Shown here piece by piece: positions 46,190 to 61,153 of a DNA stretch of 64,000 nt. Position 1 is the first letter of the stretch; each line of letters opens with the position of its first letter. This DNA comes from Oceanibacterium hippocampi (lineage in GTDB: Bacteria; Pseudomonadota; Alphaproteobacteria; Sneathiellales; Sneathiellaceae). The notes under the pieces were generated by a model. It saw only the letters and a list, made by a program, of their open reading frames with translations. It made no database searches and was not told the origin of the DNA. The stretch spans positions 2,062,335-2,126,334 of the forward strand of contig NZ_FWFR01000001.1 of assembly GCF_900172325.1 (NCBI RefSeq), in the 5' to 3' direction. Both the position numbers and the translations under genes were made by a program.

Positions 46190-46627
46190 TCAGGGGCGGA
46201 TTGTCCGCTCAGACACTGCCGGCTCCGGCTCCGGCTCGGTGGCGAAGGTGAGGCCCTCGTCGGCCCAGCCGGTCAGGCCGCCGATCATGATCTTGACCGG
46301 CCGGCCCAGGCTCGCCAGCCTGTAGGCTGCGCGATCGGCGCCGTTGCAATGCGGCCCCGCGCAATAGACGACGAACAGCGTGTCCATCGGCCATGCCGCC
46401 ATGCGGGCCTCCGATATCTCGCGGTGCGGCAGGTGAAGGGCGCCGGGAACATGTCGGCGGCGGAAGGCCGTGGCCGAACCGACGACGTGGAGCAGGACGA
46501 AATCCGGCTCCCCGACGCGCAGCGCTTCGGCCACGTCGGCACAATCGGTCTCGAACGACAGGCGGCGCCCGAAATGCTCCCGCGCCAGCGCGGCCGGGGC
46601 AGGCGGGATTTGCGTCACGATGCTCAT
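46190..46627 (-). CDS. Rhodanese-like sulfurtransferase
   Basis: The 145-residue single-domain rhodanese has LLHVVGSATAFRRRHVPGALHLPH (the family's D-V-R...H-I-p-G-A segment, with a variant first half) and the active-site loop VVYCAGPHCNGAD, carrying the catalytic Cys and a second Cys five residues later. It ends IMIGGLTGWADEGL. It may carry sulfane sulfur or act in redox defence. It lies 64 bp behind the MBL-fold gene. Confidence 0.88.
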   Translation of the reverse strand: MSIVTQIPPAPAALAREHFGRRLSFETDCADVAEALRVGEPDFVLLHVVGSATAFRRRHVPGALHLPHREISEARMAAWPMDTLFVVYCAGPHCNGADRAAYRLASLGRPVKIMIGGLTGWADEGLTFATEPEPEPAVSERTIRP

Positions 46628-46691
46628 GCAGGTCTCCAGTGTTGGCGATAGCCGTTGCGGGTTGTCGCGTCGGAATTCGTTACGTGATGCG

Positions 46692-47429
46692 TCATAGAGC
46701 GATACGGAGCCCGTCGCGGGCCGCCTCGAAAGGCGGCGCGAGCGGTCGGCCGATCATGTCGGGGCTCATGTGGGTGAGCACGATCCGGCGCGCTTCCAGC
46801 CGTCCGAGATTGGCCGTCAGGCTGGCATGATCGAGGTGCAGTTTCACCCGCTTTTCGTGGAAATAGGCCTCGGCGATGAACAGGTCGGTGTCGCGGGCGA
46901 GATCGACCAGGCTGTCCGTCCATTCGGTGTCCCCGGTATAGGCAATGGTGCGGCCCTCGACGGTGACGCGGTAGCCGTGGAACGGGCCGCCCGCATTGCC
47001 GTGATTGACCTCGAAGGCATCGACCTCGAGCGCCCCGACCTGTTGGCCGGCGCCGGCCACGAGCTCGATGAAGTGGAGCGGGAAGCGGGGCGTGGTGGCG
47101 GACGAGCCGGGGAACATCAGCTCCGTCAACTGGCGGTAGCGATCCTCGATCCCGGCCGGGCCGGCCACGGTCAGGGGGGCTGTTCGCCGCGAATGGAACT
47201 GCGCGTCCAGCATGAAGAAGGGCAGGCCGCCGAAATGGTCGGCGTGGAAATGGGTGACCAGGATCGACTGGATGGCATTGAGGTCGATCTGCTGCTGCCG
47301 GAGGGCGATCAGCGACGAGGCGCCGCAGTCGATCAGGAAGTTCGCTTCGCGTCCGCTGAGGTGGAAGCAGGTGTTGAACCTGCCGCCGGATCCGAACGCG
47401 TCGCCGCTGCCGATGAAATGGACCTGCAT
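46692..47429 (-). CDS. MBL-fold metallo-hydrolase
   Basis: The 245-residue hydrolase opens VHFIGSGDAFGSGGRFNTC and has the dinuclear metal motif THFHADHFGG, a further His in VNHGNAGGPFHGY and Asp in IAYTGDTEWTDS, with the last His in VLTHMSPDM. The architecture resembles RNase Z/AtsA-type members rather than beta-lactamases. ATG 47429 is chosen with GGAGAAAGCAG before it. It is the third leftward gene after the PNPOx-like and LysE genes. Confidence 0.88.
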   Translation of the reverse strand: MQVHFIGSGDAFGSGGRFNTCFHLSGREANFLIDCGASSLIALRQQQIDLNAIQSILVTHFHADHFGGLPFFMLDAQFHSRRTAPLTVAGPAGIEDRYRQLTELMFPGSSATTPRFPLHFIELVAGAGQQVGALEVDAFEVNHGNAGGPFHGYRVTVEGRTIAYTGDTEWTDSLVDLARDTDLFIAEAYFHEKRVKLHLDHASLTANLGRLEARRIVLTHMSPDMIGRPLAPPFEAARDGLRIAL

Positions 47430-47470
47430 CTGCTTTCTCCGGATGGGGGGTGTCGATGTGCCGGGGAACC

Positions 47471-48067
47471 TCAGCCGGTCCACATCGGGATTACCGAGGC
47501 GGCAAGGAGCAGGCCGAGCACCGCGTTGAGCAGGCGCCACTGGCGTTCCGAGCGCAGCAGGCGCCCGAGGGCGTGGCCGGTCGAGCACCAGAGCAGCATG
47601 GAACCGGCGGCGAAGACCAGGAAGGTCCCGCCGATCAGCGCGGCCTGGCCGGCCGGGTCCGCGGCAAGATGGGCGAAGGAGGACGAGGCGCCGATCGTCA
47701 CGGCCCAGGCCTTCGGATTGTACCAGACGAGGCCCGCCGCACCCCACAGGCCGATCGGCCGTGATGCCGGCCCGGCGTCGGAAGGCGAGCCGCCGGTCGC
47801 CACCCGCCATGCCAGGAAGAGCAGGTAAGCCGTCCCGAGCACCCGGACAGAGAGCTCGAGCGCCGGCACCGCCATCAGCAGGGCCGCGAGGCCGAGCGCG
47901 GAGGCCACCGCCATCGTTCCCATTCCGGCCGCCACGCCGGCGACGTAGGGCAGGGAGCGCCGCAATCCGTAGCGCATGCCGGACGCGGTGGCGAGCGTGG
48001 TCGCGCCGCCCGGGCTGCCGGTCGCGGCGGCGACGAAGATCAGGAAGGCGAGATGCTGTTCGTCCAT
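47471..48067 (-). CDS. LysE-family amino-acid exporter
   Basis: The 198-residue inner-membrane protein has about six hydrophobic segments and the LysE/RhtB-type opening FLIFVAAATGSPGGATTLATASGMRYG, with the aromatic-Pro turn WYNPKAW mid-protein. An ATTGTATC octamer (48074-48081) lies seven bases upstream of the start, linking it to the MocR sites described below. It lies 34 bp behind the PNPOx-like gene. Confidence 0.87.
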   Translation of the reverse strand: MDEQHLAFLIFVAAATGSPGGATTLATASGMRYGLRRSLPYVAGVAAGMGTMAVASALGLAALLMAVPALELSVRVLGTAYLLFLAWRVATGGSPSDAGPASRPIGLWGAAGLVWYNPKAWAVTIGASSSFAHLAADPAGQAALIGGTFLVFAAGSMLLWCSTGHALGRLLRSERQWRLLNAVLGLLLAASVIPMWTG

Positions 48068-48073
48068 CGATCT

Positions 48074-48081
48074 ATTGTATC
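48074..48081. promoter_or_regulatory. MocR-box-like octamer before lysE
   Basis: ATTGTATC lies in the 34-bp gap between the PNPOx-like and LysE genes. It is the exact complement of GATACAAT found at 48638 and 51135. Confidence 0.5.
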
Positions 48082-48101
48082 AGCGCAGATGTGAGAGAAT
48101 A

Positions 48102-48599
48102 TCAAACATATTTGTCTGATCCGGAGTCAATATCATGGACGTGCGGCTGCACGCCGTAGGTGCGATAGGCGGCCTGCATGCGCGCCTCTTCGCTGCGCCC
48201 GGGGAAGAGGCTGTAGCTCGGCGCCCATATCCGGGAGATGCGGGCGATATGCACGAGGATGACGTGACGGATCGGGAAGGCATCGCCGGCCTTCGCCAAC
48301 AGGTCGCGTCCGAGCGTCGCGAAATCGGCTTCGCCGGGCCCGATGATTCGCGCCGTGCCGGTGATCTTGAAGCCACGCTGGCGGAAAACGTCGACCATGG
48401 CGACGCAGACCTTGGGGTTTGCCCGGGCATTCCGGACGCTTGCCGGCGAGGCGATATCGGCGATGACCAGGGAATTCCCGTCCAGCGTCGCGAAAATCTC
48501 CTTCGGCGACACGTTGGGCAGGCCGTCGGCCGATACCGTGGCGAGCCAGCAGAGCACGGCCCGGTCCATCTCGCTTCGCATCGCTTCGTTCATCGGCAT
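48102..48599 (-). CDS. PNPOx-fold (pyridoxamine 5'-phosphate oxidase-like) flavoprotein
   Basis: The 165-residue split-barrel protein has RAVLCWLATVSADGLPNVSPKEIFATLDG, the usual flavin-contact N terminus, and ITGTARIIGPGEADF. A true PdxH is longer with a PLP-binding C terminus; this belongs to the short family with flavin- or F420/heme-binding relatives. It begins at ATG 48599 after GGAGAAG. It is divergent from the cupin gene, and the gap carries two GATACRAT-type sites. Confidence 0.82.
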   Translation of the reverse strand: MPMNEAMRSEMDRAVLCWLATVSADGLPNVSPKEIFATLDGNSLVIADIASPASVRNARANPKVCVAMVDVFRQRGFKITGTARIIGPGEADFATLGRDLLAKAGDAFPIRHVILVHIARISRIWAPSYSLFPGRSEEARMQAAYRTYGVQPHVHDIDSGSDKYV

Positions 48600-48637
48600 C
48601 GATCTTCTCCGCGGCGCGCTCCAGATTGCCTGTCGAT

Positions 48638-48694
48638 GATACAATATCTCCGACAACAACAATACGACGATATGGACATATGATGCATTGTATC
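48638..48694. promoter_or_regulatory. Inverted pair of MocR-box octamers in the PNPOx/cupin control region
   Basis: GATACAAT (48638-48645) and its exact complement ATTGTATC (48687-48694) face each other 41 bp apart in an A+T-rich 135-bp divergent promoter region. They lie about 39 bp from the PNPOx-like start and 40 bp from the cupin start, so both directions could be controlled. Confidence 0.6.
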
Positions 48695-48734
48695 GTAGAA
48701 AGGTCAATAGATCTGACCTAATGAGGTGACCCAG

Positions 48735-49202
48735 ATGCCTGATGTCGTCGCAATTGATGCCGCTGCCGTGCCGCCGCGGACGAAGCCGTCGAATTATCCG
48801 GCCCCTTTCGCGGTGAGGATGGGGGGGCGCGTCAAGCGCCAGCTTGGCGATGTCTTCGGGCTCACGAATTTCGGCGTCAACCTGACGATCCTCGAACCCG
48901 GGGCGGCCTCGGCGCTGCAGCATCAGCACAGCTGCCAGGACGAGTTCATCTACGTTCTCGAGGGCGAACTGGTCCTCGTCTCCGGCGCGACGGAAACCTT
49001 GCTTCGGCCGGGCATGTGCGCCGGTTTCAAGGCGGGGGAGGCGCCCCACCATCTCGAGAACCGCGCGGGGGCCGAGGCCCGTTACCTGGAGATCGGCGAT
49101 CGTTCGGAGGGCGACGAGGTCAGCTATCCTGCCGACGATCTAATTGCCGTCATGGAGGGCGGCGCCTGGCGGTTCCGGCACAAGGACGGAACGTCTTACT
49201 GA
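48735..49202 (+). CDS. Cupin-domain protein
   Basis: The 155-residue beta-barrel has the cupin motif 1 as [19 protein letters not shown] (two His, one Glu) and motif 2 around [18 protein letters not shown]. It lacks further domains. It may bind a metal and a small organic acid, as a lyase or dioxygenase-like enzyme. ATG 48735 follows GAGG; a GTG nine bases upstream is in frame. It is followed by the beta-hydroxyacid dehydrogenase. Confidence 0.87.
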
Positions 49203-49245
49203 CGGCGGATCGCCGCAACCTGGATCCAGACTGAGGGAGGAACAT

Positions 49246-50142
49246 GTGAAGACGGGATTCATCGGGCTCGGGGTCATGGGCCAGCCTATGGCGCTCAACC
49301 TGGCGCGGGCCGGACAGCCGCTTGTCGTCTGGAACCGCTCGCCGCAGAAATGCGAACCGCTCCGGGAAGCGGGGGCCGAGGTCGCGGGCAGCCCGGCGGA
49401 GGTCTTTCGCCAGGCGCGGGTCGTCATCCTGATGATGGTCGACAGCGACGCGACCGACGCGGTGCTGGCGCGTGGAACGCCGGCTTTCGCCGATAACGTC
49501 GCCGGCCATGTCATCGTCAGCATGGGGACGAACTCGGCCGACTATTCGCGCGGTCTCGACGGGGATATCCGTGCCGCCGGCGGCTGCTATGTCGAGGCGC
49601 CGGTGTCCGGCTCGCGCATTCCGGCCGAGGAGGGCGAGCTTGTCGCCATGCTGGCCGGAGACCCCGAGGCAACGGCGGAAGTGCTGCCGCTGCTCGCGCC
49701 GATGTGCCGGCAGACGGTGGCTTGCGGCGCCGTGCCGTCGGCGCTCCTGATGAAGCTTTCGGTGAACCTTTTCCTCATCACCATGGTGACGGGCCTGGCC
49801 GAATCCTTCCATTTCGCCGAATGTCACGGTCTGGATCTGGAACGCTTCGTGAAGGTCCTGAACGCCGGACCGATGTCGAGCGCGGTATCGCGGATCAAGC
49901 TGCAGAAACTGCTCGAGGGCGACTACGCGGCGCAGGCCCTGATCGCCGATGTCTGGAAGAACAGCCGTCTCGTGGCCGATGCCGCCCGCAGCGCGTGCGT
50001 GGCGGCGCCGCTGCTCGAGGCCAGCGATGCGCTTTATGCGGAAACCGCCGGGCTGGGTTACGGGCATGAGGACATGGCTGCCGTCGTCAAGGCGATCGCG
50101 AGTCGGACGTCGCTGCGGCGAAATCCCGCGCCGCACGCCTAG
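49246..50142 (+). CDS. NAD(P)-dependent beta-hydroxyacid dehydrogenase (HIBADH family)
   Basis: The 298-residue enzyme oxidises a beta-hydroxy acid or reduces its aldehyde/keto form. It begins at GTG 49246 (GGGAGGAAC upstream) with [22 protein letters not shown], and has the substrate-phosphate loop VEAPVSGS and the catalytic Lys in [11 protein letters not shown]. Relatives include glyoxylate/succinic-semialdehyde reductases. It follows the cupin gene by 43 bp. Confidence 0.9.
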
Positions 50143-50212
50143 ATGGATAGCCGGATCGCCCCGTGATATCCCGGGGTGAGGAACCGGGCTGCGCGGGGAG
50201 GGACCGTTGCCT

Positions 50213-51115
50213 ATGACCGATCGATCGTGCCATGCCGCGTGGCTTTCCCGGTCGGGAGAAACGGGGCAGTTGGGCGCGGCCGGATCCCTCTTTCCGTGGT
50301 GGAGCTTCGCCAAGACACTGCTCGCGATCTGCGCGCTCCGCCTGGCCGAACAGGGTCGGATCGACCTCGACCGGCCTTCCGCCGAAGCGCCTTTCACGCT
50401 CCGGCAACTGCTGCAGCACAGGGCCGGTGTCCCGAACTACGGGCAACTCCCGAGCTATCACGAGGCGGTCGCGCGTGGCGACCCGCCCTGGTCGCGGGAG
50501 ACGCTGCTCGCGGCGGTCGGCGCGGACCAGCCCGAGTTCCCGCCCGGGACCGGCTGGTCCTACAGCAATGTCGGCTACATGCTTGTCCGCGAGGCCGTCG
50601 AACGGGCCTGCGAATGCCCCCTGGCCGGGGCGCTGAAGCAGCTGGTCCTCGACCGGGTGGAGGTGCCCTCGGTCCGCGTCGCGGTGGAGCGCGGCGACCT
50701 CGCCGAGGTCCACTGGCCGGATGTCCGGCCCTATGATCCGGGCTGGGTCTATCATGGCTGCGTGGTCGGTTCCGCCGTCGATGCCGCGAAGGTGCTGGCG
50801 GCGCTGTTCGCGGGCCAGATCCTCGGTCCGGCCAGTGTCAGCGCCATGCTGGCCCGTCATGACCTTGGCGGCGCGCTGCCGGATCGACCTTGGACCGCCT
50901 GCGGCTACGGCCTCGGTCTGATGTCGGGCGAGATGGGCGCCGCGGGCCGCGCCATCGGCCATTCCGGCGGGGGACCGGGCTGCGTGAACGCGGTCTATCA
51001 TTTTCCCGACCTGGCGGATCCGGTCACCGTGGCGGTCTTCACCGACGGTGTGGCCGAGGGCGTGGCGGAGTTCGCGGCCCGCGACATCGCGTTGCACGGG
51101 GAACTCCAAGGCTAG
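50213..51115 (+). CDS. Serine hydrolase of the beta-lactamase/class C type
   Basis: The 300-residue protein carries the S-x-x-K motif as SFAK (residues 31-34), YSN (in TGWSYSNVGYM) and the third motif HSGGGPG. It lacks a signal peptide and is shorter than AmpC, so it is more likely an intracellular esterase/amidase than an antibiotic resistance enzyme. ATG 50213 is preferred with GGGGAGGGA nine bases before; a TTG at 50207 is possible. It lies between the dehydrogenase and the MocR gene. Confidence 0.83.
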   Translation: MTDRSCHAAWLSRSGETGQLGAAGSLFPWWSFAKTLLAICALRLAEQGRIDLDRPSAEAPFTLRQLLQHRAGVPNYGQLPSYHEAVARGDPPWSRETLLAAVGADQPEFPPGTGWSYSNVGYMLVREAVERACECPLAGALKQLVLDRVEVPSVRVAVERGDLAEVHWPDVRPYDPGWVYHGCVVGSAVDAAKVLAALFAGQILGPASVSAMLARHDLGGALPDRPWTACGYGLGLMSGEMGAAGRAIGHSGGGPGCVNAVYHFPDLADPVTVAVFTDGVAEGVAEFAARDIALHGELQG

Positions 51116-51134
51116 CGGGCGCGCCCCTTCTGAT

Positions 51135-51142
51135 GATACAAT
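51135..51142. promoter_or_regulatory. MocR-box octamer upstream of the MocR gene
   Basis: GATACAAT, with the same leading GAT as the copy at 48635 (GATGATACAAT). A second half (ATTGTTCA) lies six bases further, giving an imperfect dyad, ACAAT-N6-ATTGT. It lies 27 bp before the GTG start, consistent with autoregulation. Confidence 0.55.
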
Positions 51143-51168
51143 CGGGTGATTGTTCATTGGAGAATGGC

Positions 51169-52521
51169 GTGTCAGTTCAAAACTCGATCCAGTTGTCTCT
51201 CCCCGAAGGCAAGGGTCCGCTGCATGAGAGGCTGGCCGACGCGGTCGAACAGCTGATATCCGGGGGGCGTTACGGCCGGGGCGACCGGCTGCCGACGCAT
51301 CGCGAGCTCGCCCGCGGCGCGAACGTGGCCATCGGGACGGTGACCAAGGCCATCGATCTCCTCGAGCGGCGCGGTGTGGTGCGCGGCGAGACCGGTCGCG
51401 GCACCTTCGTCAACCTGCCGGTCGCGGCCGACGACGAGCTCGTCGATCTCAATTTCAATGTCCCGCTCCCGGTCGTCGACGAGGCGCAGTTCCGCGCGGC
51501 GGCAAGCCTTGCCGCGAGCCGGCTGGGCAGCGTGCCGAACGGCGGCTATCCGGAACCCGGCGGCGGCCGCGAGCAGCGCATGGTGGTCGCCGCCTGGCTT
51601 GCCGCGATGCGGCTGGAGGTCGATCCCAACGACCTGCTGATCACCATCGGCGGCCAGCACGGGATCCATCTGGCGATGGCCGACCTTGCCGGCACGACGA
51701 AGTCGGTGGCGACCGAGGCCGCAACATTCTCGGGCGCGATCGCCGCCGCCCGGAATCTTTCCCTCGACCTGCTGTCGGTCGACCATGACGGGCAGGGCAT
51801 GCTCCCCGCGGATCTGCACCGGGTGCTCGCGACAACGGGCTGCAAGGCAGTTTACCTGACCCCGGTCTGCCAGAACCCCTTCGGCTTCGAGATGGGAGCG
51901 GAAAGGCGCCAGGAGATCCTCGACATCTGCCGTCGGCACGACGCCTATATCATCGAGGACGACATCTACAGCCTCTACGCCGCGTCGAAGGCGAAGCCCT
52001 TTCACGAACTGGCGCCGGACCGGGTCTATTATCTCAACGGGTTGTCGAAATCGCTCACGCCCCTGGTTCGGGTCGGGCTGTTGATCCCGCCGCGCGAACG
52101 GCGGACGGCGATCGCTTCCCGCGTGCGGGCGGAGGTCTGGGGCGCCTCGCCCTTCGACCTCGAGGTTGCCCGCGCCCTGGTCGAGGGCGAGGCCCATCTG
52201 AAGGCCCGGGACATCCTCCAGCCCGAGGCCAGGCACCGGGTCGCGCTGGCGAGCCGCCTGCTTGGCCTGGACGGGGTGCCGATGCCGCAGGGCGCGCCGC
52301 ACCTGTGGCTGCCGATGACGACCGCATCGGCGGAGAACCTGGCGCGGCGCGCGCTCGAGCGGGGTGTCCGCGTGACGCCCCCCGACGCCACCGCGGTCGG
52401 CGGGGACAAGTCCGGCGGCGTGCGTCTCTGCCTGATGTCGCCGTCCCAGAGGGCGAGCCTCGAACGCGCGCTGCGGATCATCGCGGACCTCCTGCAAAGT
52501 CCCTCGGCCGAGGTCGTCTGA
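51169..52521 (+). CDS. MocR/PdxR-family transcriptional regulator with aminotransferase domain
   Basis: The 450-residue protein joins an N-terminal GntR winged helix (LHERLADAVEQLISGGRYGRGDRLPTHRELARG, about residues 16-80) to a fold-type I aminotransferase domain. The PLP Lys lies in YYLNGLSKSLTPLVRVG and the Asn/Asp/Tyr cluster in VCQNPFGFEMG and YIIEDDIYS. GTG 51169 is preferred with GGAGA before it. Such regulators sense PLP or an amino compound bound to PLP and control neighbours; the recurring GATACRAT octamers are its likely sites. Confidence 0.9.
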   Translation: MSVQNSIQLSLPEGKGPLHERLADAVEQLISGGRYGRGDRLPTHRELARGANVAIGTVTKAIDLLERRGVVRGETGRGTFVNLPVAADDELVDLNFNVPLPVVDEAQFRAAASLAASRLGSVPNGGYPEPGGGREQRMVVAAWLAAMRLEVDPNDLLITIGGQHGIHLAMADLAGTTKSVATEAATFSGAIAAARNLSLDLLSVDHDGQGMLPADLHRVLATTGCKAVYLTPVCQNPFGFEMGAERRQEILDICRRHDAYIIEDDIYSLYAASKAKPFHELAPDRVYYLNGLSKSLTPLVRVGLLIPPRERRTAIASRVRAEVWGASPFDLEVARALVEGEAHLKARDILQPEARHRVALASRLLGLDGVPMPQGAPHLWLPMTTASAENLARRALERGVRVTPPDATAVGGDKSGGVRLCLMSPSQRASLERALRIIADLLQSPSAEVV

Positions 52522-52554
52522 CAGGGTCGGTCGTGCGTTGCACTGTTGCGGGTA

Positions 52555-52591
52555 AAATCGTATCTATTGTACTATATTCAGGATACGATTT
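52555..52591. promoter_or_regulatory. Perfect 10-bp inverted repeat before the SDR gene (candidate MocR operator)
   Basis: AAATCGTATC and its exact reverse complement GATACGATTT are separated by 17 bases. The core GATACGAT differs from the other GATACAAT copies by one base. It lies 21 bp upstream of the SDR start and 34 bp after the MocR stop. Confidence 0.7.
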
Positions 52592-52611
52592 GTCGAAGGG
52601 GACGGGTGCGA

Positions 52612-53358
52612 ATGCAGAAGAAGCCTTGCCTGCTCGTGACTGGCGGCGGCCGCGGGATCGGCGCCGCGATCGTGCGCCTCGCGGTCGCGAAAGGCCACGA
52701 CGTCTGTTTCAGCTATCTGCGCGACGAGGCGGCGGCCGAGGGCCTGATCGCCAGCCTCGGACGCGATGGCGATCGTGTGCGGTGTCTGCGGGGCGACGTC
52801 GTGGAAGCCGGTTTCGCGACCCGCTTCTTCGATTTCGCCGAGGACGTCTTCGGGCCGGTGACGATGCTCGTCAACAATGCCGGCGTCACGGGGCCGATCG
52901 GAGCCTTCCGCGACACCCGCGTCGAGACCCTGCGCCGGACCGTCGACACCAACCTGCTCGGGCCGATGATGCTGGCGCAGGAAGCTGTCCGGCGGTGGGA
53001 GGCGGCAGAGATCCCGGGGCGGATGGTCAATGTCTCGTCGATTGCCTCAACGCTCGGCGCACCGCACGAATATGTGCATTACGCGGCCACCAAGGCAGCG
53101 ATCGAGGCCATGACGGTCGGGCTCGGCAAGGAGGTCGCGGCGAAGGGGATACGGGTCAATGCCGTGGCGCCCGGCACGGCCTTCACGGATATCCATGCGG
53201 CCGCCGGCGAGCCCGACCGGCCGGCGAGGGTGGTGAGCCGCATCCCGATGGGCCGGATCGGCGAGCCGGACGAAATCGCCGGGGCCGTCATGTGGCTGCT
53301 GTCTGATGAGGCCTCTTACGTGACCGCAACGGTCCTGAGGGTCTCGGGCGGCCTCTAG
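52612..53358 (+). CDS. SDR-family oxidoreductase with complete active site
   Basis: The 248-residue enzyme has LLVTGGGRGIGAAIVRLA as its cofactor loop, NNAGVTGP, the Ser in VNVSSIASTLG and the canonical YAATK (Y-x-x-x-K). The ending ASYVTATVLRVSGGL is typical. It probably reduces a carbonyl in the MocR-linked pathway. ATG 52612 is the start, just behind the perfect inverted repeat. Confidence 0.9.
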   Translation: MQKKPCLLVTGGGRGIGAAIVRLAVAKGHDVCFSYLRDEAAAEGLIASLGRDGDRVRCLRGDVVEAGFATRFFDFAEDVFGPVTMLVNNAGVTGPIGAFRDTRVETLRRTVDTNLLGPMMLAQEAVRRWEAAEIPGRMVNVSSIASTLGAPHEYVHYAATKAAIEAMTVGLGKEVAAKGIRVNAVAPGTAFTDIHAAAGEPDRPARVVSRIPMGRIGEPDEIAGAVMWLLSDEASYVTATVLRVSGGL

Positions 53359-53387
53359 AGACTGGCCTGAAGGCCAGGGAGCGAGAG

Positions 53388-54065
53388 ATGCATATCGGAC
53401 TGCTGCTGTATCCCCGGCTGACCCAGCTCGACCTGACCGGTCCGCTGGAGGTCTTCGCACGCATGCCCGATGCGCAGGTATCCCTGGTCTGGAAAAGCCT
53501 CGATCCGGTCCCGTGCGACAGCGGATTCCGCATCGTCCCGACGGTTCGCTTCGCGGACTGCCCCGACCTGGATGTCCTTTGCGTGCCGGGCGGCCCAGGC
53601 CAGATCGAGCTGATGTCGGATCGGTCCACGCTCGACTTCATCCGCTCGAAGGCCGAGACCTGCAGGCTCGTGACTTCGGTCTGCACGGGCTCGCTGGTGC
53701 TGGCGGTGGCCGGCCTGCTCAAGGGCAGGAAGGCGACATGCCACTGGTCGTCGCTGGATCAGCTCGCCCTGTTCGGCGCGATCCCGGTCGACGCGCGCGT
53801 GGTACGCGACGGCAACCTGATCAGCGGCGCCGGCGTCACCTCCGGGATCGACTTCGCGCTGACGGTCGTGGCCGAGCTTTGCGGCGAGGCGACGGCGAAG
53901 GAGATCCAGTTGCAGATGGAATACGATCCAGCGCCGCCGTTCGCGGGCGGTACGCCGCGGACCTCCGATCCCGCCATCCATGCGTCGGTGAGCGGCAAGA
54001 TCGCGCCCTTCATCGCGAGGCGGCGAGAAGTATCCGAGGCCGCGGCGAGGGCACTGGCCGGCTGA
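53388..54065 (+). CDS. DJ-1/PfpI-family protein, isonitrile-hydratase-like
   Basis: The 225-residue protein has the DJ-1 elbow Cys in VTSVCTGSLVLA and a preceding acid in PGGPGQIEL. The extended C terminus, EIQLQMEYDPAPPFAGG, is shared with isonitrile hydratases (InhA). It lacks the AraC-type DNA-binding tail of GATase1-like regulators. It may hydrate a carbon-nitrogen triple bond or act as a glyoxalase-like enzyme. It follows the SDR gene by 29 bp. Confidence 0.83.
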   Translation: MHIGLLLYPRLTQLDLTGPLEVFARMPDAQVSLVWKSLDPVPCDSGFRIVPTVRFADCPDLDVLCVPGGPGQIELMSDRSTLDFIRSKAETCRLVTSVCTGSLVLAVAGLLKGRKATCHWSSLDQLALFGAIPVDARVVRDGNLISGAGVTSGIDFALTVVAELCGEATAKEIQLQMEYDPAPPFAGGTPRTSDPAIHASVSGKIAPFIARRREVSEAAARALAG

Positions 54066-54099
54066 GACCCAGGCTGCGCGGGAACCGGGAACGGACGCG

Positions 54100-55326
54100 T
54101 CAGTCGACGGCCCGGCGCGGCCGCCGCCTGTCCCTCGGCAGCAGGATCGCGAACAGCGTCGCGAGCGAGCCGCCGATACCCAGCACCGCGAAGGCCCAGC
54201 CCCAGTTCCGGGGCGTGTCGAGTCCCGGATTGGTGAGATCGAGGATCCATCCGAACACCAGGGGCGAGACGGCGCCGGCGCCGAAGCCGAGGATCGAACG
54301 CAGCGCCAGCATGCTGCCCAGATGACGCGGCGCCACGGATTCCGTCATCGCCGTCGACAGCACACCGGAATCGGCGATGGTGGCGAAGCCGTAGAGCGCG
54401 GCGAGCACCAGCACCACCGCCGGGCCCCAGCCGATGCTCCACCCGAAGACATAGGAAAGCGCCGCGCCGGCAAGCGCCATCGTCACGAGGATGAGCTTGC
54501 GGCCGAAGCGGTCGGACAGGCCGCCGCTGATCAGCGTGGCCAGCGCGCCGGAGAAGTGAAGGATGCAGGCGATCACGATGCCGAGCGTCGCAGCGGACCA
54601 GTCGATCCGCCCGGCGAGCGAGATCGTCAGGAATGCCGGCGCCCAGGCCCACATTCCGAGCAGTTCCCAGCAATGGCTCGTATAGCCCGCGGTCAGCAGG
54701 ACGGACGGGCGCGAGGCCAGTGACTCGCGGAAGCGGGTTTCACCCTCCGCCACCGGCTCCCGGCGGTGGATCCGGTTGGGCTCGCGTCGCAACGCGGCGA
54801 GGGCGGCGGCGAACCCGGCGCAGAGGAAAAGCGCGACCAGGGCCCAGGTCCAGCGGTAGCCGATGACGGGGATGCAGGCCGCCGCGAGCGCGATTGCCAC
54901 GCAGTATCCGAGCGAGGAGCCGGCGAGAACCAGCCCCATGGCCCAGCCGCGCGAGGCGGACGGGACCTTGTCCGCGACGAGCATCAGGGCCGGGGTGTAG
55001 GAGCCGCCGAGCGTCAGGCCGACGAGGCCGTAGAGGACGAGCGCGCTTTCGTGCGATCGGGCGGCGAATGCGAAGATCAGGAAGGAGACCAGCGAGCAGG
55101 CGTTCGACGCGAGGAACACGCGCTTCGCGCCGAGATGGTCGGACAGCCACGAGGTGACCAGCAGCGAGATGGCATAGGCGAGATTGAAGACGGACTGGAC
55201 CGCGCCGGCTTCGGCGCCCGACATTCGCCACTCGCCCAGCAGGAACGGCAGGCTCCCCGCATAGATCATCATGGCGATGCTGGCGGTGAAGCGGCTGGCC
55301 GTCAGCAGCAGCAGGAACCGGTTCAT
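54100..55326 (-). CDS. MFS transporter
   Basis: The 408-residue inner-membrane permease has about twelve transmembrane segments. The motif-A-type loops are WLSDHLGAKRVF between helices 2 and 3 and GGLSDRFGRKLIL in the second half. Substrate is unknown; the neighbouring aminotransferase suggests an amino or keto acid (inference). It is convergent with the DJ-1/PfpI gene. Confidence 0.88.
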   Translation of the reverse strand: MNRFLLLLTASRFTASIAMMIYAGSLPFLLGEWRMSGAEAGAVQSVFNLAYAISLLVTSWLSDHLGAKRVFLASNACSLVSFLIFAFAARSHESALVLYGLVGLTLGGSYTPALMLVADKVPSASRGWAMGLVLAGSSLGYCVAIALAAACIPVIGYRWTWALVALFLCAGFAAALAALRREPNRIHRREPVAEGETRFRESLASRPSVLLTAGYTSHCWELLGMWAWAPAFLTISLAGRIDWSAATLGIVIACILHFSGALATLISGGLSDRFGRKLILVTMALAGAALSYVFGWSIGWGPAVVLVLAALYGFATIADSGVLSTAMTESVAPRHLGSMLALRSILGFGAGAVSPLVFGWILDLTNPGLDTPRNWGWAFAVLGIGGSLATLFAILLPRDRRRPRRAVD

Positions 55327-55398
55327 GGCGCTCCGTTCCCCCTCAGCCTGGCGCCGGCCGGGCCGCGATCATGCCGACGGGCTGCACGGCCGGTCCGT

Positions 55399-56616
55399 TC
55401 AGGCGGCGCTGCGGCCGCCGGCGGCGCCGGCCCGCAATGCCACTTCCAGCAGGCCGCAGAGCGTCCCGATGCCGTTCGCGATGGCCTCTTCATGCAGGAG
55501 GGAGAAGCTCAGTCGCAAGTTGTTCGCGCCGCTGCCGTCGGTGAAGAAGGCGCGCCCCGGGACGAAGGCGATGTTCAGTTCCATCGCCTTCGCGAGCAGG
55601 ACATCGCTGTCGAGGTCGGGCGGCAGGGTCAGCCAGACGAACAGGCCACCGGCCGGCCTGGTGAAGCCGACGCCGGCCGGGGCATGGCGGTCGAGCGCCG
55701 CCAGCATCGCATCGCGGCGCCCGGCATAAAGGGCGCGCGCCCGTTGCACCGCCCCGTCGAAGGAGGTGCTGGCGATGCGGTGGACGACCTGCTGGTTGAT
55801 CGTCGCCGTGTGCAGGTCGGCGGCCTGCTTGATGAGGGTCAGGCGGCGAATGAGCGCGGCCGGTCCGCAGACCCAGCCGACCCGCAGCCCGGGCGACAAC
55901 GTCTTCGAGAAAGTCCCGCAGTAAAGCGTTCTCGCGGCGTCGATGGAACCGCTGTCGGCAATGTCGAGCGCCGCCATCGACGGCAGGCTCTCGCCCTCGT
56001 AGCGGAGGTCGGCATAGGCGGCGTCCTCGACCACGATCGCGCCGGCGCGGCGGGCGAAGGCGAGGGCGGCCTCCCGTTCCCGGACCGTCAGCGTCTCGCC
56101 GCTCGGGTTGGCGAAATCGGGGACGAGGTACACGAGCTTCGCCGGCCCGGATTCACTGACCGCGTCGGCATGGAAGCGCATCGCGACGAAGGCCGGGTCG
56201 AAGGCGGAGAAGGATTGCAGGGCGCCCAGATAGGTCGGTGCCGCGGTGACGAGCGCATCGCCCGGGTCCAGGAAGAGCTTGCCGATCAGGTCGAGCGCCT
56301 GCTGCGAGCCATGGGTGACGAGGACATGCTCCTCCGTGCAGGCCACGCCGCGCGCGGTCATCATCCGGGCGATCCACTGGCGGAGCGGCGGATAGCCTTC
56401 GCTGGTGGAATATTGCAGGCTCGCGCCGCTGTCCGTCAGCGCCTCGGCATAGGCCTCGCGGAAGGCCGCGACATCGAACAGCGACGGCTCGGGAATGCCG
56501 CCGGCGAATGACGTCATGCCCGGTCGCTCGATGACCTTCAGCAGTTCGCGGATCTCCGAGGCGCGCATGCGGTGCGCGCGACGGGAGAGGGGATAGTCGG
56601 GGCGGTCGAACGTCAC
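55399..56616 (-). CDS. PLP-dependent aminotransferase (2-aminoadipate/LysN-like)
   Basis: The 405-residue fold-type I aminotransferase has the PLP Lys in YCGTFSKTLSPGLRVGW, the Asp of VVEDAAYADL and the PLP-phosphate region LVTHGSQQALDL. The N terminus, MTSFAGGIPEPSLFDVAAF, is typical of LysN-type transaminases that are close to the MocR domain but lack the DNA-binding half. It lies 72 bp upstream of the MFS gene on the same strand, so the two may be cotranscribed. Confidence 0.88.
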   Translation of the reverse strand: MTFDRPDYPLSRRAHRMRASEIRELLKVIERPGMTSFAGGIPEPSLFDVAAFREAYAEALTDSGASLQYSTSEGYPPLRQWIARMMTARGVACTEEHVLVTHGSQQALDLIGKLFLDPGDALVTAAPTYLGALQSFSAFDPAFVAMRFHADAVSESGPAKLVYLVPDFANPSGETLTVREREAALAFARRAGAIVVEDAAYADLRYEGESLPSMAALDIADSGSIDAARTLYCGTFSKTLSPGLRVGWVCGPAALIRRLTLIKQAADLHTATINQQVVHRIASTSFDGAVQRARALYAGRRDAMLAALDRHAPAGVGFTRPAGGLFVWLTLPPDLDSDVLLAKAMELNIAFVPGRAFFTDGSGANNLRLSFSLLHEEAIANGIGTLCGLLEVALRAGAAGGRSAA

Positions 56617-56685
56617 GGTCGTGTTCCTCGAGCGGTTGGATGCGCCGGCGGGCGGTGCGCGCGCCGGGGCGATCCGGGGTTTCGG

Positions 56686-57672
56686 TCAGGCATTCCCGTC
56701 CGCCGGCGATCGCCACGGATTGGCCCCGTCGACGAGCCACGACACGGTGTCGCGCCAGAAGCGGACTTCATGGGCCGAGTGGAACAGGCCGAAATGGCCT
56801 GTCGGACCGGCGGTGAAATAATCCGGTCCGAGATGCACCAGCGTCTTCGGGGCGTTCCGGTAGTAGCTCAGGCCCCGGCGCACGGCGGGCGGCGTCGCGT
56901 AGATGTCGTCATGTGTCGCGATGGCGAGCAGGGGGGCGGTGACGGCGTCGAAGCGGGCGAGGATCTCGGCCCGACGGGATGCGGGGTAGCTCGCCTCCAT
57001 CCGCGCCCGGCGGAAACTCCACTCGTTCGCGACGCCGGCCGGCAGGTCTTCCAGCCAGCCCAGCCGCCGGCCGGGGAAGTAGCCGCACAGGGCGGTGACG
57101 AGGGGCATCGCCAGATGCCACTTCACGAACAGCCGGAGCCGCTGGCGGGCCGCGTAGTCCGGCCAGTAGGCGTACTGGGCGCCGACCGTCAGGATCCGCT
57201 CGACCGCGCCGGCACTTGCCGCCAGGCCCGGCAGGAACCCGCCGATGCTGTGGCCGACGACCGCGATCCGGCCATCGGGATCGCGGGCGCGCAGGAAGCG
57301 CACCGCGGCGTCGAAATCGTACTCGCCCCAGTCGCGCCAGCGATAGCCGCAGCCTCTGAGCGATGCCGGGCGGGACGCGCCGATCCCCCGGTAATCGTAG
57401 GTCAGCGCGTTCAGGCCGTGCCGGGTGAGAAAGCGGGCGTAGCGGTGATAGTAGCTCGCGAGAACGCCGGTCGCAGGATTGACGATGACCGTCCGGGATG
57501 CCGTGCCGGGTCGGGCCGGCCAGAATTCGCCGCGCAGCCTGACCCCGTCGCTGCAGGCGAATTCGACCGGGATCGCCCCGGCGGCAGCCTGCTGCGGTTG
57601 CGCCGTTGCCGTCGCAGGCGCCCGGTCCGGGCCGCCGTCCTGCCGTATCCTGTCCGGAATCCCGTGCGTCAT
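56686..57672 (-). CDS. Alpha/beta hydrolase
   Basis: The 328-residue hydrolase has the nucleophile elbow GHSIGG (in IAVVGHSIGGFLPGLA), an oxyanion region TYDYRGIGASRP, the acid in ATHDDIYATP and the late His in GPTGHFGLFH. No signal peptide is present. It resembles ORF-type esterases/lipases of unknown substrate. ATG 57672 is the start; the continuing leftward-open frame into LigD is a shadow. Confidence 0.86.
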   Translation of the reverse strand: MTHGIPDRIRQDGGPDRAPATATAQPQQAAAGAIPVEFACSDGVRLRGEFWPARPGTASRTVIVNPATGVLASYYHRYARFLTRHGLNALTYDYRGIGASRPASLRGCGYRWRDWGEYDFDAAVRFLRARDPDGRIAVVGHSIGGFLPGLAASAGAVERILTVGAQYAYWPDYAARQRLRLFVKWHLAMPLVTALCGYFPGRRLGWLEDLPAGVANEWSFRRARMEASYPASRRAEILARFDAVTAPLLAIATHDDIYATPPAVRRGLSYYRNAPKTLVHLGPDYFTAGPTGHFGLFHSAHEVRFWRDTVSWLVDGANPWRSPADGNA

Positions 57673-57711: not shown

Positions 57712-57772
57712 CAATGAGACAGTATTGCTGACATAAATACATTTTTCCGGAATGGTATCAAGCGTCTCATTG
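57712..57772 (-). promoter_or_regulatory. Promoter flanked by a 9-bp inverted repeat, upstream of the alpha/beta hydrolase
   Basis: On the minus strand TTGATA (57756-57761) and TATTTA (57734-57739) are spaced 16 bases and form a sigma-70-like promoter in an A+T-rich patch. The inverted repeat CAATGAGAC (57712-57720) and GTCTCATTG (57764-57772) brackets it exactly, so a regulator could grip both edges. Confidence 0.5.
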
Positions 57773-57815
57773 TCGGGAATACAAAATTTCCCCGGCGACG
57801 CCCGGTGCGACCGCA

Positions 57816-60260
57816 TCAGGCGCCGACTGCCTCGTGCATCGCCCGGGTGATAGACTGGCGCCAGCCGGACGCCGCCTTCCACGGATCGTCCGTCTCGATC
57901 CGCTCCAGGACATCGGCGACGCGGAAACCGCGGGCCGATTCCAGGGTCGCGAGCTCGTCCCAGGCGACCGGCATTGCCACCGGGCCGCCTTCCCGGGCGC
58001 GCGTCGAATAGGGCGCGATCGCCGTGGCGCCGCGCCGGTTGCGGAGCCAGTCGATGAAGATGCGGCCCTTGCGCTTCGCCTTGGAGGCGGTCGCCGTGTA
58101 GCGCTTCGGCGCGTCCCCGGCGAGGGTCCGCGCGAAGGCCTCGGCGAACCGCCCGACATCCGCCGCCGTCGCCCGGCGGACCAGCGGGACGGTGACGTGA
58201 ATGCCCTTGCCGCCGGTCACCAGCGGCAGGCTTTCCAGGCCGATGTCGGCGAGCCGGCCGTGCATGTCGAACGCGGCGGCCCTGACCTCGGAAAAGGCGA
58301 GGCCCTCGTCCGGGTCGAGGTCGAAGACCAGCCGTTCGGGCCGCTCCAGCGCATCGATTCGCGACCACCAGAGATGGAACTCGAGCGTCCCCATCTGGAC
58401 CGCGGAAACGAGGCCCGCGGCATCCCGCACATACATGTAGCTTTCCGTCTCGCCGGAGCTTTCCTCGATCGCCACACGGCGGATCGGATCGGGGAAGCCG
58501 GTGCCGGCATGTTTCTGGAAGAAGCAGGATTTCCGCCGGCCCTGTGGGCAGCGGACCAGCGACAGCGGCCGCCCGGCGACATGCGCCAGCATGCGGTCGG
58601 CGACCCGTTCGTAGTAGCGGGCAAGCGCGATCTTCGTCAGGCCCTGTTCGGGATAGACGGCCCGGTCCGGATGGGTGATTCGGATCCCGGCCACCAAATG
58701 ACCGTCCGCATCCTGCGTTCGCCCGGGCGTTTCCATGCGCACCTCGCGGGCGTCCTTGTCCTCGCGCAGCCCCAGGAAGACCCCGTGCCGGACATGGCCG
58801 TCGGCGGTGAACTCGGTGAAATCCACCTCGGCGACCTGCTTCGGCGTGACCCAGCGGGCGTGCCGGGCGATCGCCGCCGGCACCTTGTCGAACGGCGCGG
58901 TCTTGCGGGCGAGGGGCTTCAGCGCCGCCGCGACCTGTTCCATGACAGCCCCGGAGAAGCCGGTGCCGACGCGGCCGCGATAGCGGAGGGCGCCGTTCTC
59001 GAAGCTGCCGAGCAGCAGCGAGGCGAAGGGGCGGCCGCGCTTGTCCGACGGCGAGTAGCCGCCGATGACGAATTCCTGTCGCCGGGTGCATTTGACCTTC
59101 CGCCAGGCGCCATTCCGCCGCCCGGAATAGGGCGCGTCCGCGCGCTTGGAGACGATGCCCTCCTGTCCGGCCCGGCAGATCGACCGGAAGACCTCGGGCC
59201 CGCTGCCGCGCACATGCTCGCTGTAGCGCAGCACGCCGGACCGCCCGGCGCTTTCGAGGAGGGTGGCAAGGCGTTCCTTCCGTTCGATCAGCGGGCGTTT
59301 CCGGAGGTCCTCGCCGTCCAGCGAGAGCAGGTCGAAGGCGTAGAAGCGCAGGCTGCCGCCGGATTTGAGCGCCGCCTGCAGGGCCGAGAAGGTCGACGAT
59401 CCCGACTGGCCGGCAGCGACCACCTCGCCGTCGATCAGCGCCCGCCCGCATTCGAGGTCGGCGGCGGCGTCGGCGATCCCGGCGAACCGGTCGGTCCAGT
59501 CGTGGCCGCCGCGCGTGTAGCAGCGCACCGTCCCGCCGCCGATCGCGACCAGGCAGCGGTAGCCGTCGAACTTCACCTCGTGCAGCCAGTCGTCCCCGGC
59601 CGGGGCCTCGGAGACGAGGCGCGCGAGTTGCGGTGCCTCGAAGCCCGGTCGTTCCCCGACGTCGGGTTCCGCGTTCCGGGCGATGGCATCCATGCCGCGT
59701 TCGCTCGCCACGCTTTTCGTCTCCCGCTCGATCAGGGGCCGGCCCGAGATTCGGGCGGCATCGTCGTCGGCCTTGATCAGGAGCCAGTTCTCGCGCTTCT
59801 CGCGCTTCCTTGCCGCCATGCGGACGAGGATCCACTCGCCCTTCATCCGTTCGCCGTGGGCGATGAAATGCAGCTTGCCCCCGGACAGGCCGGCGTCGGG
59901 ATCGCCCTTCGGTTCCCAGGCGCCGGTGTCCCAGAGCATGACGGTGCCGGCGCCGTACTCGCCCTCCGGGATCACGCCCTCGAAATCGCCGTAGGAGAGC
60001 GGGTGATCCTCGGTGCGGACGGCGAGGCGCTTGTCCGCCGGGTCGAGGCTCGGCCCCTTGGTCACCGCCCAGCTTTTCAGGACGCCGTCCCATTCGAGCC
60101 GGAGGTCGTAGTGCAGCCGGCGCGCGTCGTGCTTCTGGACGAGGAAGGCGAGCTTCCGCGTGCGCCGCCGTCCGCGCCGGCCCGGCGGCTCGGCGGTCCG
60201 CGCGAAATCGCGGCGCGCGTTGTAGGCGTCGAGCGGCCGCGAGGGGGTGCGCCCGCTCAT
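57816..60260 (-). CDS. ligD: DNA ligase D (NHEJ)
   Basis: The 814-residue repair enzyme has, in order, an N-terminal 3'-phosphoesterase (HYDLRLEWDGVLKSWAV, residues about 1-160), an ATP-dependent ligase (KFDGYR at about residue 229 is the K-x-D-G motif) and a C-terminal primase/polymerase (WWSRIDALERPERLVFDLDPDEG). This PE-Lig-Pol order is the Pseudomonas type; mycobacteria use Pol-PE-Lig. It repairs double-strand breaks with Ku, which overlaps its start by four bases. Confidence 0.95.
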   Translation of the reverse strand: MSGRTPSRPLDAYNARRDFARTAEPPGRRGRRRTRKLAFLVQKHDARRLHYDLRLEWDGVLKSWAVTKGPSLDPADKRLAVRTEDHPLSYGDFEGVIPEGEYGAGTVMLWDTGAWEPKGDPDAGLSGGKLHFIAHGERMKGEWILVRMAARKREKRENWLLIKADDDAARISGRPLIERETKSVASERGMDAIARNAEPDVGERPGFEAPQLARLVSEAPAGDDWLHEVKFDGYRCLVAIGGGTVRCYTRGGHDWTDRFAGIADAAADLECGRALIDGEVVAAGQSGSSTFSALQAALKSGGSLRFYAFDLLSLDGEDLRKRPLIERKERLATLLESAGRSGVLRYSEHVRGSGPEVFRSICRAGQEGIVSKRADAPYSGRRNGAWRKVKCTRRQEFVIGGYSPSDKRGRPFASLLLGSFENGALRYRGRVGTGFSGAVMEQVAAALKPLARKTAPFDKVPAAIARHARWVTPKQVAEVDFTEFTADGHVRHGVFLGLREDKDAREVRMETPGRTQDADGHLVAGIRITHPDRAVYPEQGLTKIALARYYERVADRMLAHVAGRPLSLVRCPQGRRKSCFFQKHAGTGFPDPIRRVAIEESSGETESYMYVRDAAGLVSAVQMGTLEFHLWWSRIDALERPERLVFDLDPDEGLAFSEVRAAAFDMHGRLADIGLESLPLVTGGKGIHVTVPLVRRATAADVGRFAEAFARTLAGDAPKRYTATASKAKRKGRIFIDWLRNRRGATAIAPYSTRAREGGPVAMPVAWDELATLESARGFRVADVLERIETDDPWKAASGWRQSITRAMHEAVGA

Positions 60261-61153
60261 GCCGCCTTCGGGCCCGACTTCCGCGCGCGGCCGGATTTCG
60301 ACGCCGGTTTCGCCTTCGACGCCGGTTTCGCCTTCGACCCGGATTTCGACCGGGGCGAGGATTTCGTCGTCTCCAGGCTCTTCTTCAGCGCCGACATCAG
60401 GTCGACGACATTGTCGCCGCTCGTCTCGCGCCGATCGTCCCCGGCGGTCACCTTTCGGGACTTGCGGCTGCCGCGCTTGCGCTCGATCAGGTCGCGGAGC
60501 GCGTCGGCGTAGTGGTTCCGGAACGACGTCGCGTCGAACGGCGCGGTCTTCTTCCCGATCAGCGTGGTCGCGACCTCGAGCAGTTCCTTGTCGGACTTCT
60601 TCGCCCGGATGTCGGCGAACAGCGGCTCGGCCTCGCGGATCTCCTCGGCATAGCGCAGGGTCTCGAGCAGCAGCCCGTCACCGCAGGGCCGGACGGCGGC
60701 GAGATATTCCTTGCCGCGAAGCGCCAGCTGGCCGAGGCCGATCTTCTCCGATTCCCTGAGGGCATCGCGCACGACATTGTAGGCGTCCATGGCGAGCTCG
60801 TCGGTCGGCACGAGGTAATAGGGCTTGTCGTAATAGAGCGGGGCGATCTCGCAGGCGCCGACGAACTGCACCAGTTCGAGTGTCCGCTTCGTCTCCAGCC
60901 GGATCGCCTCGATCTCGTCAGGGTCGAGCAGGACGTAATTGTCCTTCTCGTATTCGAAGCCCTTCACGATGTCGTCGCGGTCGACCGGGCCGATGCCCTC
61001 GACGACCTTCCGGTAATGCACCGGCTTGCCGCTCGGCTCGTGGATCTGGCGGAACGACAGGGACGCGCCGGATTTCGTCGCGCTGTACATCTCGACCGGG
61101 ATCGAGACGAGCGAGAGACGGAGCTGGCCCTTCCAGAGGGAACGCGGCGCCAT
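60257..61153 (-). CDS. Ku protein (NHEJ)
   Basis: The 298-residue dimer-forming end-binding protein begins SLWKGQLRLSLVSIPVEMYSA and has the Ku core (VEGIGPVDRDDIVKGFEYEKDNYVLLD). A long Lys/Ser/Pro-rich C-terminal tail (GSKAKPASKAKPASKSGRAR) binds DNA in related proteins. The DNA of the tail is a tandem 18-bp repeat. The bacterial Ku-LigD operon completes a non-homologous end-joining unit. Confidence 0.95.
   Translation of the reverse strand: MAPRSLWKGQLRLSLVSIPVEMYSATKSGASLSFRQIHEPSGKPVHYRKVVEGIGPVDRDDIVKGFEYEKDNYVLLDPDEIEAIRLETKRTLELVQFVGACEIAPLYYDKPYYLVPTDELAMDAYNVVRDALRESEKIGLGQLALRGKEYLAAVRPCGDGLLLETLRYAEEIREAEPLFADIRAKKSDKELLEVATTLIGKKTAPFDATSFRNHYADALRDLIERKRGSRKSRKVTAGDDRRETSGDNVVDLMSALKKSLETTKSSPRSKSGSKAKPASKAKPASKSGRARKSGPKAA
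60297..60350. repeat. Tandem 18-bp repeat in the Ku tail
   Basis: Two identical copies of TTCGACGCCGGTTTCGCC (60297-60332) and a degenerate third copy (60333-60350) encode the repeating KAKPASK-type tail of Ku. Such units change number easily. Confidence 0.8.

Follow-up and report, generated by a model that had tools for sequence, protein, structure and literature searches.

In the model built on GabR and EnuR, a MocR dimer loaded with pyridoxal 5′-phosphate (PLP) sits on a pair of boxes, and its binding changes in response to an amino compound. To our knowledge, operators have been defined for few MocR regulators, and the effector is known for a minority only. Here we describe a 64,000-nucleotide stretch of the Oceanibacterium hippocampi genome (assembly GCF_900172325.1, contig NZ_FWFR01000001.1, positions 2,062,335 to 2,126,334; referred to as the window), in which copies of the octamer GATACRAT lie in the gaps around a mocR gene. 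Sequence comparison indicates that GATACRAT is very probably the half-site of the encoded MocR, with the boxes as the operators of its local regulon.

51169–52521, +: mocR, putative regulator with a GntR winged helix and a fold-type-I aminotransferase domain; GTG start predicted

MocR operators have been described as direct repeats whose boxes are separated by two or three helical turns (PMC5320631), and that of EnuR as ATTGT-n6-ACAAT overlapping promoter elements (PMC8739950). MocR regulons of the PdxQ and PdxW type comprise PNPOx-family oxidases, LysE/DMT transporters, aminotransferases, and PhzF, with two to four repeated boxes (Suvorova & Rodionov 2016, PMC5320631). The protein encoded in the window has the MocR/GabR domain plan, a GntR winged helix (PF00392, residues 20–82) fused to an aminotransferase fold (PF00155, residues 93–435), with both matches above cut-off. 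Its best NCBIfam match and nearest named family is EhuR/EnuR (EutR), the regulator of ectoine catabolism, at 296.2 bits against a cut-off of 480 (NF052286), while PdxR (NF052282) is matched at 160.5 bits against a cut-off of 320. Because neither family cut-off is reached, MocR is taken to be neither EhuR nor PdxR; judged from its sequence, it appears to be a new orthologous group, with a defined box, of the well-described MocR family, near EhuR/EnuR but outside both EhuR and PdxR. Consistent with this placement, the MocR clade forms a separate deep clade in the tree, and no ectoine uptake or catabolism genes (ehuABCD, eut, doe) were found by Pfam at 46–58 kb of the window, the true ehuR locus L091 serving for comparison. 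The EnuR operator shares an ACAAT/ATTGT core with the box of this clade, but ATTGT-n6-ACAAT is absent from the window, and some clade loci carry the opposite, convergent arrangement, TACAAT-n6-7-ATTGTA. As in PdxQ/PdxW-type regulons, a PNPOx gene and a lysE gene both adjoin boxes here; in contrast, the cluster has no other vitamin B6 gene, and the commonest target in this clade is a cupin, a term absent from the text of PMC5320631.

A cluster of GATACRAT copies around mocR

The original prediction had placed six copies of GATACRAT in noncoding gaps near mocR. An exact scan of the window recovered all six at the predicted positions and no further copy, and all six are intergenic, spread over 4.5 kb. 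The intergenic share of the window is only ∼5.95 kb. The copies, with two weaker companions, are as follows.

48074–48081, −: box 1, GATACAAT, 6 nt 5′ of the lysE ATG at 48067; matrix rank within 1–4 in the window
48638–48645, +: box 2, GATACAAT, between the divergent PNPOx and cupin genes (starts at 48602 and 48735)
48661–48668, +: weak companion, AATACGAC, 23 bp downstream of box 2 in the same direction; matrix score only 5.5
48687–48694, −: box 3, GATACAAT, same gap as box 2, which it faces
51135–51142, +: box 4, GATACAAT, 26 nt 5′ of the mocR GTG at 51169; includes TACAAT, a possible −10 element
52557–52564, −: box 5, GATACGAT, in the gap between the mocR stop at 52521 and the ATG at 52612 of a short-chain dehydrogenase/reductase (SDR) gene
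52566–52573, −: tentative weak companion of box 5, AGTACAAT, at a distance of 9 bp; matrix score 7.7
52582–52589, +: box 6, GATACGAT, 22 nt 5′ of the SDR start

Dinucleotide shuffles of the whole window contained 1.55 copies on average and at most five, as compared to the six observed. The genome scan proposed along with the original prediction returned 68 copies in 4.83 Mb, of which 62 lie outside the cluster (41 coding and 21 intergenic), and no exact pair ≤60 bp apart occurs elsewhere in the genome. The genome's own rate predicts ∼0.06 copies in a 4.5-kb stretch, and the Poisson probability of at least six at the outside rate is 5 × 10−11. As GATACRAT was picked after the sequence had been read, these window and genome statistics alone are biased and overstate the case; the out-of-sample tests on orthologous loci described below remove this selection bias. 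A literature search for the literal word GATACAAT returned nothing on bacterial regulators.

The octamer in orthologous loci

Close relatives of MocR are few: they were found in 0 of 25 genomes of its own family and, besides itself, in one of 385 genomes of the class, while a scan of GTDB contigs yielded 11 relatives with 48–75% identity. Further orthologs were taken from L020 (a Sphingomonas plasmid), L022 (G119), L046 (G1043), and L052 (G1277); L010/L047 (one contig), whose match lacks the N-terminal DNA-binding region, was left out. All 15 usable members fall into a single clade (support 100/100), well separated from EhuR, from the lysE-linked MocRs of Caulobacter, and from others. When every octamer was ranked over the intergenic DNA of the 14 orthologous loci outside the window, GATACAAT came first, with 19 copies in 12 loci as compared to 0.51 expected under a first-order Markov model, and the octamers next in z-score overlap that same word. 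GATACAAT was likewise the top octamer in the 160 nt around mocR starts (8 of 15 loci versus 0.06 expected; Bonferroni-corrected p = 2 × 10−12), a value to be read with the fact that a few of these regions come from 64–75% identical proteins and are not fully independent. The more distant L005, L006, and L008 (51–55% identity) carry GATACAAT near the mocR start too. The flanks of 31 intergenic sites add almost no information, except that G is avoided before the box, and the octamer is therefore taken as the whole box. With a matrix built from the other loci only, the six sites of the window ranked 1–6 among ∼128,000 positions. Held-out orthologs obtained after the box had been defined (L046 and L052) exhibited boxes in the cupin/PNPOx and major facilitator superfamily (MFS)/mocR gaps, those of the L046 cupin/PNPOx gap lying at 8484 (−) and 8502 (+). 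L003 has an exact box at 4235, in the equivalent place before lysE.

These data bear directly on whether the cluster arose by chance or from mobile or repetitive sequence. In favor of a mobile origin, one pair of copies elsewhere in the genome (L027) seems to represent the inverted termini of an IS-like element. However, the flanks of the six boxes differ from one another, with none conserved, and across 14 other loci no octamer is more enriched than GATACAAT. Both chance and an insertion-sequence (IS) repeat were rejected, being contradicted by the octamer enrichment in orthologous loci and upstream of mocR, and either is extremely improbable. At L027:2835–4099 itself, the two GATACAAT copies lie inside the inverted sequences TTGGATATTGTATCC and GGATACAATATCCAA, 1.26 kb apart, which are probably IS-like ends.

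Spacing and orientation of the boxes

Around the 31 exact boxes, same-direction companions with ≤2 mismatches were counted by distance, a few pairs being scored from both members. At 22±1 bp, 11 companions were found as compared to 1.2 expected (99% maximum of the null, 6), and at 32±1 bp eight were found, again above the 99% maximum of the null. A single fixed spacing was also tried and rejected, as no exact distance beats its null; the signal appears only after pooling over ±1 bp, which was decided once the exact-distance result was known. The two preferred distances agree with the two- and three-turn direct repeats of MocR operators (PMC5320631). MocR-type operators comprise two to four boxes in direct and/or inverted repeat; the companions at 22±1 and 32±1 bp fit this arrangement clade-wide, with weak partners in the window alone. 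There, facing boxes lie 49 bp apart in the PNPOx/cupin gap and back-to-back boxes 25 bp apart in the SDR gap, each gap having a weak third box in addition. Face-to-face TACAAT-n6/7-ATTGTA, or a sequence near it, is present in five clade loci, and neither the window nor any clade locus contains a match to back-to-back ATTGT-n5-8-ACAAT. Box triplets occur in L003 and L005, and both orientations are found within one gap.

The Caulobacter MocRs (L012–L017) belong to the same family, are 35–38% identical to the MocR of the window, and in most loci adjoin a divergent lysE. They share the ACAAT half-site core, but their putative operator is of the divergent type ATTGTCAC-n-GTGACAAT, with TGACAAT half-sites instead of ATACAAT, and back-to-back ATTGT-n5-8-ACAAT is found in four of these six outgroup loci. 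The recognition region differs visibly between the two groups (PPQRD...LGTVTRAY versus PTHRE...IGTVTKAI). In L012, L013, L015, and L017, the ATTGTCAC-n-GTGACAAT palindrome lies just 5′ of the mocR start and is likely the operator of a different MocR group. A bolder account, which we regard as rather unlikely, is that the clade has changed its operator geometry as compared to an EnuR-like outgroup, with back-to-back ATTGT-n6/7-ACAAT replaced by spread GATACAAT boxes, both as direct repeats of two or three turns and as face-to-face pairs. On this account, the half-site, which includes a −10-like hexamer, would be shared with some MocR paralogs, and a set of cross-talking MocRs would govern a mobile and hitherto undescribed pathway for an amino compound (cupin, hydrolase, aminotransferase, SDR, and transporters). 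With its specific box, its defined target set, and a related outgroup whose box and geometry differ, this MocR makes a good case for how MocR winged helices select DNA.

Assignment of the boxes to MocR

Because the same word adjoins the same mocR gene in distant bacteria, MocR is very likely the binder of the boxes. The mocR gene is common to all loci by design, however, so co-occurrence alone is circular and controls are needed. Cupin homologs were used as such a control: a box lay within 400 nt in 0 of 25 loci without this MocR, as compared to four of eight loci with it (Fisher p = 0.0017). The claim that GATACRAT marks a MocR regulon is thus supported by footprinting within a clade of 100/100 support, by held-out orthologs, by helical spacing, and by the cupin control.

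Several observations weigh against this assignment. The mocR ortholog of L007 has no box directly upstream, and those of L004 and L009 have degenerate upstream boxes only. The window boxes are without a strong same-direction partner at 22 or 32 bp, those at 48661 and 52566 being weak. At mocR and lysE, the box includes TACAAT, which resembles a −10 hexamer, and a −10 function could account for the conservation there, at least in part, even if the box were not an operator. Two MocR paralogs encoded elsewhere in this genome have GATACAAT just upstream of their genes.

The last two observations each lend themselves to another explanation. The octamer might mainly be a promoter −10 element (TACAAT, sometimes with an extended TG) rather than an operator: GATACAAT includes TACAAT, several mocR genes show TGATACAAT ∼20–30 nt 5′ of the start codon, and the two paralogs have GATACAAT at a similar place. 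Yet most TACAAT upstream of mocR is preceded by GA (8 of 11 loci), T stands before the G of the box in only 12 of 31 sites, and the GATACGAT copies are not −10-like. Boxes in both orientations inside one gap, the triplets of L003 and L005, and phased companions at 22 and 32 bp also speak against a −10 element, and 68 genome copies, 21 of them intergenic outside the cluster, do not describe a general promoter element. A generic −10 element was rejected as the main cause and is improbable in that role, though the mocR and lysE copies may still be of this kind.

Alternatively, several MocRs, or a paralog, may read the boxes as a cross-talking set with a common ACAAT half-site core, which also occurs in EnuR operators. 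The distance from GATACAAT to the start of the MocR gene is 22 nt in L131/L028 and 8 nt in L136/L036, and further paralogs have GTTACAAT or TGTCACAAT near their starts. On the other hand, box clusters lie beside this MocR in the genomes examined, exact box pairs occur nowhere else in this genome, and the recognition-helix residues of this clade are unlike those of other MocRs; cross-talk is accordingly a minority possibility. From the sequence it is reasonable to infer one regulator, one shared effector, and at least four promoters, although exclusivity is not fully secure, as two MocR paralogs carry GATACAAT upstream. The paralog copies at L028:2970 (G000:C7:417369) and L036:3077 (G000:C16:713676) are two of the few solitary intergenic GATACAAT elsewhere in the genome, and in L036, where the divergent gene encodes an EamA protein, CATACAAT lies 36 bp upstream of GATACAAT in the same direction.

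With MocR as the reader of the boxes, GabR and EnuR suggest a mechanism by analogy. A MocR dimer with bound PLP would occupy box pairs that are two or three helical turns apart or inverted and that overlap or flank promoters, each GATACRAT half-site being contacted by one monomer. Conserved Asn, Asp, Lys, and Arg residues of the PLP site predict PLP binding, and the corresponding motifs are kept in all 15 orthologs: LSKxLTP (VSK in one), EDD(I/L)Y, (Q/H)NP, and the VR(L/I) arginine. Reaction of an amino compound with this PLP would then alter MocR binding, such that degradation and export genes are switched together. MocR binding, PLP occupancy, an amine or amino acid as effector, and the sign of regulation are what we infer; at mocR and lysE, the sign is most likely repressive, because the box there sits at the promoter or start codon, where binding would block the promoter. 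Since an aminotransferase, dehydrogenases, hydrolases, and LysE and MFS transporters are among the predicted targets, the pathway presumably degrades or exports a small amino compound.

Genes under putative MocR control

The local regulon would comprise lysE (with the metallo-beta-lactamase-fold and rhodanese genes), PNPOx, the cupin operon, mocR, SDR-PfpI, and, via weaker boxes, a hydrolase-aminotransferase-MFS operon.

46190–46627, −: rhodanese-domain protein (PF00581), whose gene may close the lysE operon; homologs in the L007 and L011 loci
46692–47432, −: metallo-beta-lactamase-fold hydrolase (PF12706/PF00753); ∼40-nt gap, probably cotranscribed with lysE
47471–48067, −: lysE-type exporter (PF01810), predicted target
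48102–48602, −: PNPOx-fold protein (PF01243), predicted target
48735–49202, +: cupin (PF07883), predicted target and first gene of its operon; commonest neighbor in the MocR clade, 8 of 15 loci
49246–50142, +: 3-hydroxyisobutyrate dehydrogenase (HIBADH)-family gene (PF03446, PF14833), cupin operon
50213–51115, +: serine beta-lactamase-fold hydrolase (PF00144), cupin operon
52612–53358, +: SDR oxidoreductase (PF13561), predicted target
53388–54065, +: DJ-1/PfpI family gene (PF01965), 3′ of SDR
54100–55326, −: MFS transporter (PF07690), last gene of the candidate operon
55399–56616, −: class I/II aminotransferase (PF00155), candidate operon; adjoins boxes in L007, L008, and L022
56686–57672, −: alpha/beta hydrolase (PF12146), first gene of the candidate operon; homologs in L006, L020, L046, and L052
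57736–57785: candidate degenerate operator upstream of the hydrolase-aminotransferase-MFS operon, with AATACATT at 57736 (+), GATACCAT at 57752 (−), and AATACAAA at 57778 (+)

The regulon is probably wider than originally predicted, by the operon 57672–54100 (−) with its three weaker boxes: the gap 5′ of the hydrolase holds three of the 26 top-scoring octamers of the window (57736, 57752, and 57778), and homologous operons carry boxes in L006, L020, and L052. Besides the cupin, recurrent clade neighbors are SDR (seven loci, looser relatives included), aminotransferase (five), alpha/beta hydrolase (five), rhodanese (three), and PNPOx (three), together with MFS transporters, lysE, HIBADH, and PhzF. 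The enzyme set varies between loci, and the substrate is not deducible from gene content. The find is solid but fairly ordinary for the MocR family and leaves its general picture unchanged; this MocR group now has a specific, testable 8-bp box with ∼30 natural copies in 15 loci and a defined target set, useful for finding the substrate of an uncharacterized cupin/aminotransferase/exporter pathway.

Distant Proteobacteria and a conjugative Sphingomonas plasmid (L020) carry mosaic combinations of the cluster genes (46190–57672). Together with the absence of MocR from the 25 other genomes of its family that were searched, this mosaic recurrence suggests horizontal transfer of the cluster. Directly beside it, at 57816–61153 (−), lie LigD and Ku genes of bacterial end-joining, which seem unrelated.

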